A DNA stretch of 44,263 nucleotides from an uncultured Pseudomonadota bacterium. Its GTDB lineage: Bacteria > Myxococcota_A > UBA796 > GCA-2862545. Below the pieces are notes generated by a model that saw nothing but the letters and a program-made list of their open reading frames with translations, had not been told where the DNA came from and searched no databases. This document shows positions 13,555 through 16,714 of the stretch, in pieces. A program made the translations under genes and the position numbers. Positions within the stretch are counted from its first letter, which is position 1; each line of letters starts with the position of its first letter. The stretch is taken from NCBI GenBank assembly GCA_903861005.1, contig CAIOSP010000091.1:34437-78699 (forward strand), in the 5' to 3' direction.

Positions 13555-15402
13555 TCAGTCGACGCTCGCCTCCGCAGGGAGGGGCAGCTTCGCGATCACC
13601 GCGGGGACCATCGCCGCCGTGCGGATCGCCAGATCCGGGGCGGCTACGGACTCCCAACGGTTGGGTCGGCACCACGCGCCCAGCACGAACAGGCCGGTCG
13701 GCTCGCCCTGCGCATTGCACGCGCGGCCCTGGTCGTCGCACAGCACGCCGGTGCGCGCATCGTCCGGGGTGACGAGGCCACGCGCGAGCAGGTTGCGCCA
13801 GAGCGGATCGTCGGTGCGCGTCACATCCGAGAGCTGGCCGGCGCAGTGCACGACACGGTCGAAGGCGAGGGTGAGCTCGTCGCCGCTCGTCCGGCGCAGC
13901 GTCGCCACGCGCTCCTCGCCCGCGACGGCCAGGCCGCGCAGCTCGGCGGACTCGCGACGCAGGCCACCCTCGGCCTCCCACGCCTTCAGCTCGGCGATGT
14001 GGTCGCGGTGGGCGCGGTGGCGGACCATCTCCCACTGTGGGCGGACCTCGGTCAGGAAGACGAGGCGCTCGTCGTGCGGCAGGCGCTCCCAGAGGCGCGT
14101 GGTGTGCGCGCGGATCGCGTCGATCACCGGCTGCCACGGCACGCCGATCGCCTTGTGGCGGGCGACCTCAGCGCGGGCCCAGTCGACCAGTTCGTGCGCG
14201 GTGCGGGGCGCCGTCTCCGGGTCGACGAACGCGAGCGAGCCGGTCCACACGACCTCTGGCAGGTGACGCGCGGGCCAGAGGCCGCGCCGCGACACGGCGA
14301 CGATCGGCCCGGCGTGCTGCTGCGCGCGCAGGGTGCGCAGCACGTCCACGGCGGTCAGCGCCGTCCCCACGACGAGCACCCGATCGGTGGTCGGGATGCG
14401 GTCAAGCGTGCCCGCCACCCAGGGATCGGTGATCACACGAGGATCGGCGTCGGCCAGACCCGGGGGCTTGGTCGACAGGTGACCGGTGGCCAGCACCACC
14501 GCGGACGCGGTCAGACGCTCACCGCTCGCCAGGACCACCTCGGAGGTGGGGCCGGGGAGCACGTCCACCGCGGCGTCGCGCAGGACGCGCACGCGACCGG
14601 GTGCTGAGCGCACCACCTCGGCCAACGTGGCTTGGACGAACTGCCCGAACAGCTTGCGCGACACCAGCTCCCACGGTCGCGCCTCGGGCCTGCGATCACG
14701 CACGAAGTCGTAGAACGCGCGCGGGGTAGACGGGTCGATCGCCATCCCGATCGCTGGGACATTGAGCGTGTGGTCGTCGAACGGGGTCGAGTACGCGACG
14801 CCCAAGCCCAGCGTGTCGCCGCGCTCGACGATCGTGATGCGCAGGTCCTTGCGACCGGTGCGGAGCAGCTGGACCGCTGCCGCGACGCCCGCGAAGCCGC
14901 CGCCGAGGATGACCACGCGGCCGCCCTCGCTGGTGGTGGGCGCGTCCACGGGCAGAGGCGGCGCGTACACGTGGAGCGACAGCAGCCCCACGGGAGACGA
15001 CGGCGCGCCGCCGAGCTGGTGCGTGTCGGTGCTGACCGCCTTGCCGATGTCGCCCGGGCCCAGCCGCGTTGTGGCGCCGCTGACGCGCACCTCGATCGCG
15101 TCGCCTTGGAGCACACGGAACGCGCAGGCGGACACGCCGTGGCCGTGCAGCGCGCTCGACTGGCCGGGGCGCCAGCACAGCAGCCGCACCTCAAACCGAG
15201 GGTCTTTGTAGATGAGCGCGCGCACGTAGCGGTCGGTGTCCCAGCCGACCCATGGCGCGACGTCCTCGGCGGTGACGTCGCCCTTGTGGAGCGCGTCGGC
15301 CAGCGCGTCGACGTCCAGGCGCTCGGCGGCGAGAAGCTCGTCGACCACGGTGCGTAGGGACGCGGGCAGCGTGGCGCCCTGTGGGGTGTTCGAGTCGGTC
15401 AT
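13555..15402 (-). CDS. Cysteine-dioxygenase-like cupin fused to FAD/NAD(P)-binding oxidoreductase
   Basis: Two domains in one 615-residue protein. Residues 1 to about 150 are a thiol dioxygenase cupin: LLCWRPGQSSALHGHG carries the first two iron ligands H86 and H88, H128 is the probable third, and SLHVYAPP gives H144 and Y146. Y59-x-R61 matches the substrate-carboxylate Arg of cysteine dioxygenase. C93 lies five residues after H88, where mammalian CDO has the Cys of its Cys-Tyr crosslink. From about 162 a Rossmann fold (VVILGGGFAG) begins an FAD domain with GLGVAYSTPFDDHTLNVPA, typical of the FAD_NAD_binding_3 family. ATG 15402 is chosen for its AGGTGA ribosome site. Likely step: cysteine to cysteine sulfinate by the first domain; the second domain's substrate is unknown. 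Divergent from a sulfur-transporter pair. Confidence 0.85.
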   Translation of the reverse strand: MTDSNTPQGATLPASLRTVVDELLAAERLDVDALADALHKGDVTAEDVAPWVGWDTDRYVRALIYKDPRFEVRLLCWRPGQSSALHGHGVSACAFRVLQGDAIEVRVSGATTRLGPGDIGKAVSTDTHQLGGAPSSPVGLLSLHVYAPPLPVDAPTTSEGGRVVILGGGFAGVAAAVQLLRTGRKDLRITIVERGDTLGLGVAYSTPFDDHTLNVPAIGMAIDPSTPRAFYDFVRDRRPEARPWELVSRKLFGQFVQATLAEVVRSAPGRVRVLRDAAVDVLPGPTSEVVLASGERLTASAVVLATGHLSTKPPGLADADPRVITDPWVAGTLDRIPTTDRVLVVGTALTAVDVLRTLRAQQHAGPIVAVSRRGLWPARHLPEVVWTGSLAFVDPETAPRTAHELVDWARAEVARHKAIGVPWQPVIDAIRAHTTRLWERLPHDERLVFLTEVRPQWEMVRHRAHRDHIAELKAWEAEGGLRRESAELRGLAVAGEERVATLRRTSGDELTLAFDRVVHCAGQLSDVTRTDDPLWRNLLARGLVTPDDARTGVLCDDQGRACNAQGEPTGLFVLGAWCRPNRWESVAAPDLAIRTAAMVPAVIAKLPLPAEASVD

Positions 15403-15851
15403 CTGAGTCACCTGGAGCATGGGCGCCGCCGGCGAGCTGCACGTGGAATATCCAGCGCGTCGCGCCGCAGAGCAGACCCTATGGAGAACTTGGGTGCTCG
15501 GGGGACGACGCGCATGGACGGATTCTCCACGTCGGCATCCCGGGCACCCGGCGTGCCACGCTGGCACTCCCGAAAACCGGACGTTCGCCGGTTGCCGGGC
15601 CCCGCGGGCCTTGGCCGGTCGCGGAGTTTCGCGGAGGTATCACGGGTCGTTCGTGGCGTGCGAGCCCGCAGGACCGCCGCGTCGGCGGATTTGGGTGGGG
15701 CGACGAGATCGTCGGGAGCGCCACGAGCGCCCGCGGTGCGCGCGGCGGGGATCCCGCGAAGGGTCGTGGGATCGCGGGCGTCCTGACCGTAGAACCGACG
15801 CTTTCGTCTGGGCACGGAGACTGCAAAGGCCGCTCGTCGAACGGAGCGACC
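15403..15851. other. 449-bp divergent intergenic region with several short palindromes
   Basis: No convincing gene; open frames here lack coding character and ribosome sites. It holds GTGCCA-CGC-TGGCAC (15553-15567), AACCGG-N7-CCGGTT (15575-15593), GGCCC-CGC-GGGCC (15598-15610) and CGACGA-GA-TCGTCG (15701-15714). These could be operators or RNA hairpins controlling the CDO-FAD gene and the YeeE pair. No regulator gene is adjacent. Confidence 0.5.
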
Positions 15852-16280
15852 ATGGTCGGCGAGCAGTTCTTGGACGAGATCGCGGGCGGAGTCCTCATCG
15901 GGTTGGCGGGGGCCATCCTGCTGTTGGGGCTGTCGCGTGTGGCGGGCGTGAGCGGGATCCTGGGGGGGCTGGTCACGTCGGCGCGCGGCGATCTGGGTTG
16001 GCGGGTGTCGTTCCTGGCAGGTCTCGGCGTGGGGGGGCTCGTGCTGGCCTTGCTCGCTCCGGCTGCCCTCGCCCCCGCCTCCGGGTCGCTGGCCTGGGTC
16101 GCCGCGTCGGGGCTGCTGGTGGGTGTCGGCACGCGCCTGAGCAACGGCTGCACGAGCGGGCACGGCGTGTCGGGCATCAGCCGCCTGTCGCCGCGCAGCT
16201 TGGTCGCCACGCTGGTGTTCATGCAGACGGGCGCGCTCGCCGTAGGCGCGGTCCATCACTGGTTCGGCGGTGGGCAGTGA
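15852..16280 (+). CDS. YeeE/YedE-family transporter, N-terminal half protein
   Basis: Small four-helix membrane protein (142 residues) of the YeeE/YedE (TsuA-like) group, which takes up thiosulfate or related sulfur compounds. The family signature NGCTSGHGVSGISRLSPRS, with its conserved Cys, is present near residue 97. Full-length YeeE has two such halves; here they are separate genes. The downstream half begins inside this gene's stop (GTGA overlap), so the two should be made together. ATG 15852 is chosen as the start of the hydrophobic protein. It is divergent from the CDO-FAD fusion, which supports a role in sulfur metabolism. The exact substrate is not determinable. Confidence 0.88.
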   Translation: MVGEQFLDEIAGGVLIGLAGAILLLGLSRVAGVSGILGGLVTSARGDLGWRVSFLAGLGVGGLVLALLAPAALAPASGSLAWVAASGLLVGVGTRLSNGCTSGHGVSGISRLSPRSLVATLVFMQTGALAVGAVHHWFGGGQ

Positions 16281-16714
16281 GGAGCTATGCGATCGCGTTC
16301 CTGTCGGGCCTGGTGTTCGCCGCGGGCCTGGGCTTGGCGGGCATGACCCAGCCGGCCAAGGTGCTGGCCTTCCTCGACATCGGCGGCGCGTGGGATCCAA
16401 GCCTCGCCTTTGTGATGGTCGGCGCGATCGCCGTTCACGCGGTCGCCTGGCAGATCGCCACGCGCCGGGGGATCGTGATCGTGGTGCCGAAGGCGATCGA
16501 CGCCCGTCTGGTCGGCGGCGCGGCGCTGTTTGGGGTGGGCTGGGGCCTGTCGGGCTGGTGCCCGGGCCCTGCGGTCGTGGCGATGGGCTCGGGCCTGGAA
16601 TCCGCCTGGGTGTTCGCGCTGGCGATGTTCTGGGGCCACGCGCTGGTCACGCGCTTCGACCTGACGAGCGGAGAGGACATCCGCCTGATCTCGGCGCCGG
16701 CCCCCGCCAAGTAG
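16277..16714 (+). CDS. DUF6691/YeeE-type transporter, C-terminal half protein
   Basis: Second half of the split transporter, 145 residues and four predicted helices. It starts with GTG at 16277, overlapping the upstream stop by four bases. GLAGMTQPAKVLAFLDIGGAWDPS and GVGWGLSGWCPGPA are characteristic; the Cys in GWCPGP corresponds to the second conserved Cys of YeeE and is thought to relay the sulfur substrate through the pore. Such pairs are commonly found beside persulfide dioxygenase or rhodanese genes; here the partner is a thiol-dioxygenase fusion instead. Confidence 0.87.
   Translation: MRSYAIAFLSGLVFAAGLGLAGMTQPAKVLAFLDIGGAWDPSLAFVMVGAIAVHAVAWQIATRRGIVIVVPKAIDARLVGGAALFGVGWGLSGWCPGPAVVAMGSGLESAWVFALAMFWGHALVTRFDLTSGEDIRLISAPAPAK

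Follow-up and report, generated by a model that had tools for sequence, protein, structure and literature searches.

A dioxygenase-flavoprotein gene and its neighbours

The window, which is the whole stretch of 44,263 nucleotides analysed here, carries on its minus strand a gene (13555..15402) for a protein of 615 amino acids, in which a cysteine dioxygenase (CDO) is joined to a flavoprotein. The open reading frame starts with the ATG at 15402, and an alternative in-frame ATG lies at 15420. Translation of the frame from 15402 to 13555 gave 615 residues and no interruption. Two Pfam domains scored above their cut-offs in this single frame: CDO_I at residues 10-119 (48.3 bits, cut-off 23) and NAD_binding_9 (PF13454) at residues 164-308 (104.2 bits, cut-off 21.8). 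An earlier, sequence-only reading had placed a CDO and an FAD oxidoreductase in one protein, and this architecture stands. The same reading had named the second domain FAD_NAD_binding_3; Pfam gives NAD_binding_9 instead. The structure model of the whole protein had a pLDDT of 87.9 and a pTM of 0.89.

Full-length homologues of the window protein, joined at the same site, were found in other Myxococcota (38-44% identity), and a full-length fusion is also encoded in a single-contig genome of 10.3 Mb from another family (G209, locus L104). Independent homologues that share this site of fusion rule out a frameshift or sequencing error at the joint. An artefact in which two genes were joined by sequencing or assembly, a thought invited by the 223-contig draft of the window's genome, thus has a negligible chance. 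The earlier reading had itself raised the possibility of such an error. The fusion of CDO_I to PF13454 is real and recurrent. We found no description of it in the open-licence papers searched.

The divergent neighbour of the fusion, on the plus strand, is a YeeE/YedE-type sulfur transporter encoded as a pair and assigned by Pfam. Its N-terminal half (Sulf_transp) lies at 15852..16280 and its second half (DUF6691), of which the window's genome has two copies, at 16277..16714. Two papers connect the YeeE/YedE family with the import of thiosulfate or sulfur (PMC11073785, PMC11582611). The pair stands beside the fusion at four loci, divergently in the window and L034 and convergently in L039 and L042. 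Each genome holds no more than one or two copies of DUF6691, so the chance of such adjacency is about 2 x 2/5500 per locus, which for four of 14 loci gives about 3e-10. When the same adjacency is counted as two independent lineages, the chance is of the order of 1e-5 as a rough estimate. A sulfate ABC transporter is encoded close to the fusion at L035, and its substrate-binding protein scored above the NCBIfam cut-off. Among the stand-alone flavin genes of the window's order, that of L131 is near a sulfate adenylyltransferase-like gene and that of L133 near a CysA-type gene. At the remaining fusion loci, no such sulfur genes were seen among the neighbours identified.

The neighbourhoods of plasmid-borne stand-alone flavin genes were mixed. 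On a plasmid of Pantoea deleyi (L097:4755-7350), a stand-alone flavin homologue lies in an alkanesulfonate cluster and adjoins ssuD.

The cysteine dioxygenase half and its Cys93

The dioxygenase half is a cupin of residues 1-150 (14953..15402, minus strand), supported by the CDO_I match, the model and a profile comparison with rat CDO (E about 1e-21). Modelled alone, it reached a pLDDT of 93.6. The model matched Bacillus subtilis CDO with a Z of 20.2 and rat CDO with a Z of about 17 over about 141 residues. These results bear out the assignment of the N-terminal part as a CDO.

The alignment located all three predicted Fe ligands, H86, H88 and H128. R61, the equivalent of the Arg60 that serves the substrate carboxylate, and Y59, the equivalent of Tyr58, are both present, and the Ser/Thr-His-Tyr triad is complete (S142, H144 and Y146). 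Window and rat residues pair as H86/H86, H88/H88, C93/C93, H128/H140, R61/R60 and Y146/Y157, and the numbers given earlier to H86, H88, C93, H128, R61 and Y146 were exact. In the three-His iron site, the substrate Arg, the triad and Tyr59, the window protein is like the Arg-type CDOs of PF05995, such as rat CDO1 and B. subtilis YubC. Compared with stand-alone CDOs, to which it is 21-24% identical, it lacks most of the C-terminal tail and is fused to a flavoprotein. The fusion is the only CDO_I protein in the window's genome. Judged by its fold and aligned residues, the cupin half probably has CDO activity.

In most fusions, the alignment showed a full and intact catalytic set, with both the substrate Arg and the triad in place. 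Two fusions have damaged CDO sites. At L037 (5851-7704, G043), the site is degraded by R61H, C93G, S142L and H144Q, with the flavin half intact. At L045 (5893-7863, Vulcanococcus limneticus), the cupin carries H88R and C93E, and the flavin core is intact. The pair of changes at L045 is possibly a rewired metal site.

The codon of Cys93 (15124..15126, minus strand) stands at the crosslink position of mammalian CDO. Its predicted partner is Tyr146 (14965-14967, minus strand), so both thioether residues of the mammalian enzyme (rat Cys93-Tyr157) are present in the window protein; the crosslink itself is putative. Cys93 has been described as prototypical of eukaryotic CDOs and as absent from many bacterial ones (PMC4019311). 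The residue had accordingly been called eukaryote-like. As a residue match this is right, but as a peculiarity it is misleading, since of the 51 stand-alone bacterial CDOs that we gathered 35 have Cys93, mainly those from Planctomycetota, Vibrio and Verrucomicrobiota, a sample collected with fusion-derived patterns and therefore biased towards relatives of the fusions. A fairer contrast is found within Myxococcota, where 4/26 stand-alone CDOs have Cys93 versus 6/7 fusions. Ten of 15 CDO-flavin fusions have it overall; elsewhere position 93 is Ala in the melainabacterial fusions, Gly in L037 and Glu in L045. We therefore rejected Cys93 as a mark of eukaryotes. By its distribution it is a mark of a group of bacterial CDOs to which most of the fusions belong, and not of eukaryotic origin. 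The broad bacterial occurrence of this "mammalian" residue bears on the question of why the Cys-Tyr crosslink arose.

A different fusion of CDO was observed in Planctomycetota (L054:1410-3092, L084:4310-5980 and L085:5614-7617). Here the CDO is likewise of the Cys93 type (3/3) and joined to an oxidoreductase of sulfur metabolism. The partner is a molybdopterin protein of the sulfite-oxidase type (Oxidored_molyb and Mo-co_dimer), whereas the window protein has a flavoprotein. Such a chain would hold the first and last steps in the oxidation of cysteine to sulfate. The open-licence papers searched held no description of it.

The flavin half and its relation to FzmM

The flavoprotein half comprises residues 158-610 (13573..14931, minus strand), as supported by Pfam, fold, profile and motif mapping. 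It has the FAD motif GGGFAG at residues 167-172, a predicted NADPH motif (G346-x-A348-L349-x-x-x-D353) and SRRG at 371-374. A helical insert at about 400-478 contains R431, R461 and R463, which are invariant in the fusion family. From these features, we consider it likely that this half is an NAD(P)H-dependent flavoprotein.

In a structure search, the top match of the flavin half was FzmM of Streptomyces (8CP5/8CP2), with a Z of 27.6-27.8 over about 440 residues at 20% identity. Below it were YpdA, a bacillithiol disulfide reductase (Z 25.4), ornithine hydroxylases and thioredoxin reductases. FzmM was also the top flavoprotein in profile searches, at 3e-16 with the fusion profile and 2e-20 with the flavin-family profile. 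When the flavin family was compared with the FzmM-type family by hhalign, the result was 98.6% over 442 columns. FzmM-type proteins of Streptomyces plasmids, which adjoin CreD-type lyases, themselves score as PF13454.

The FzmM/CreE type is an L-aspartate N-hydroxylase, a class B flavin monooxygenase, and the window protein shares with it the Pfam family, the FAD and NADPH Rossmann cores and the Asn of the flavin site. In FzmM this residue, Asn62, is positioned over flavin C4a (PMC10404684). It maps to Asn214 of the window protein (14761..14763, minus strand), which is invariant, and the GxGLxxxD and SRRG motifs are common to both. FzmM Trp51, which packs on the flavin, aligns with an invariant Tyr204, an aromatic residue but not Trp. 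At the second Gly of GxGLxxxD, the window protein has Ala348, whereas all other aligned family members have Gly. Given this change, the cofactor use of the window protein may differ.

The substrate regions differ more. Arg13 and Arg577 of FzmM belong to its aspartate chamber (PMC10404684). Neither of these entry-chamber residues is conserved; the aligned positions hold Ala171 (usually Ser) and Ala/Val. The large helical domain of FzmM, with Arg266, Arg276, Arg409, Arg412, Asn413 and Arg416, has no alignable counterpart in the fusion family, whose helical insert is shorter and cannot be aligned to it. A search for a CreD-like lyase ORF near the fusions found none, and the positive controls L116, L118 and L119 were detected. 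We rejected aspartate N-hydroxylase as a direct answer, since the fusions lack both the chamber arginines that can be aligned and a neighbouring lyase gene; the flavin half cannot be read as a plain aspartate hydroxylase. The shared cores and motifs, together with the differing substrate region, suggest that it is a relative of class B N-monooxygenases with a different substrate site.

It should be noted that L116-L119 are nitrosuccinate cassettes, each an aspartate N-hydroxylase-type gene with a CreD-type lyase gene, which are found on many Streptomyces plasmids. The CreD-type lyases of these loci are annotated as PcaB or adenylosuccinate lyase.

The flavin half is unexceptional within its own family; it is 31-37% identical to stand-alone NAD_binding_9 proteins (COG4529, the group of Escherichia coli YdhS). 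Those proteins differ from the window protein in having no CDO domain. For PF13454 or COG4529 under those names, we found no function in the open-licence papers searched. Two members with unusual extensions were seen. A PF13454 protein of 893 amino acids on a Streptomyces plasmid (L098:5935-8616) has a long extra C-terminal region and is possibly a further fusion. At L115:1330-3381 (G174), a distant flavin homologue is followed in one frame by apparent ankyrin-type repeats.

Distribution and a proposed two-step oxidation

Within the window's order, 6/63 genomes encode the full-length fusion. Others have the flavin half only, and in five genomes of the order the flavin protein is present with no CDO_I at all. 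A contig scan with a single sequence found nothing, while a scan with an alignment recovered fusions. A scan of GTDB turned up the same architecture in additional Myxococcota, three Melainabacteria and one cyanobacterium, V. limneticus. Among 282 sampled Myxococcota genomes, a CDO-flavin fusion accounts for seven of the 33 CDO_I matches. At L044, the two domains are encoded by separate genes that overlap by ATGA. This gene pair lies directly downstream of an Rrf2-family regulator gene, and cysK and a gene for a rhodanese are close by. The stand-alone flavin protein is widespread on plasmids of alpha-proteobacteria, enterobacteria and Streptomyces.

The AU test found the CDO halves compatible with one clade (p 0.63), in a CDO tree that is weakly resolved and has long branches. 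The fused flavin halves, which are interspersed with CDO-free members, were for that reason rejected as one clade (p about 1e-82). The trees give a mixed picture: an old fusion with repeated loss of CDO and several separate fusions both fit and are not separable.

Our best explanation, which we hold tentatively, is that the fusion is a bifunctional enzyme of sulfur metabolism. The N-terminal Arg-type CDO would convert L-cysteine and O2 to L-cysteine sulfinate. The C-terminal FAD/NADPH monooxygenase-like half (PF13454) would then add a further oxygen to cysteine sulfinate. Oxidation of the sulfur would yield cysteate; the alternative is the nitrogen, the atom of aspartate that FzmM oxidises. 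Both activities, the handover of the product and the second reaction are proposals. Cysteine sulfinate is an isostere of aspartate in shape and charge. The flavin half is a distant relative of an aspartate-oxidising enzyme and the CDO product closely resembles aspartate, so the oxidation of cysteine by the joined protein may take two steps. An earlier example of a flavin monooxygenase with a sulfinate substrate is mammalian FMO1, which converts hypotaurine to taurine. The substrate site of FzmM binds sulfate, and sulfate inhibits the enzyme (PMC10404684), so a site of this kind can hold a sulfur oxyanion.

A two-step oxidation of a thiol within one protein had been put forward from the sequence; it remains plausible, and the kinship with FzmM makes it more specific. 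This kinship, the CDO fold and residues, the recurrence of the fusion, the L044 gene pair and the sulfur-gene context suggest such a bifunctional enzyme. Against it are the absent FzmM chamber Arg residues, the lack of a CreD-like lyase nearby and Ala348 in the NADPH motif of the window protein. Strict coupling of the two halves is opposed by the flavin half in CDO-free genomes and by the two fusions with damaged CDO sites. That the flavin half acts on the CDO product or a direct derivative has, in our view, somewhat less than an even chance, and S- and N-oxidation are not separable. A still more specific outcome, in which the fused flavin domain makes an N-oxidised sulfinate that decays to nitrite-level nitrogen or sulfite, or oxidises sulfur to give cysteate, seems rather doubtful. 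If true, N- and S-oxygenation would each amount to a way of oxidising cysteine not yet described in bacteria.

Three alternatives were weighed. The flavin half may have a substrate of its own, with the cupin as an accessory or regulatory sensor of cysteine or O2 and the fusion serving co-regulation. We consider this unlikely, but the CDO-free genomes with a flavin protein, the split flavin clades and the damaged sites of L037 and L045 keep it alive, as does the spread of the flavin protein alone on plasmids. A mere sensor, however, would not need the substrate Arg or the triad, and the catalytic set is intact in most fusions.

Slightly less favoured is an upstream or supporting role for the flavin half. 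As an NAD(P)H-dependent reductase it would produce or protect the thiol substrate, freeing it for example from a disulfide, S-sulfocysteine or a persulfide, or would keep the iron ferrous. The sulfur-transport and cysteine-synthesis neighbours would suit this role, and the fold also matches YpdA and thioredoxin reductases. However, FzmM is the better match by both structure and profile, and the flavin half has no conserved redox-active Cys pair, only a single Cys column filled in 13/20 rows. For want of such a pair, the thioredoxin-reductase type was rejected.

Less probable again is that the substrate of the dioxygenase half is not cysteine but a different small thiol, such as ergothioneine, mercaptosuccinate or 3-mercaptopropionate. 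Related solved enzymes use several thiols, and when the barrel part (residues 57-155) was compared as a single sequence, the top score was a bacterial ergothioneine dioxygenase. That enzyme, however, has Gly at position 93, and R61, Y59 and C93 of the window protein match Arg-type cysteine dioxygenases.

The fusion connects the well-studied CDO with COG4529/PF13454, a family of flavoproteins that is very common and for which the best solved relative found here oxidises aspartate. Its chief interest is that it points to a substrate that can be tested for that family, cysteine sulfinate or a relative, so that one purified protein could assign a role to the family. The same protein could bring to light a new step in how bacteria metabolise cysteine and sulfonates.
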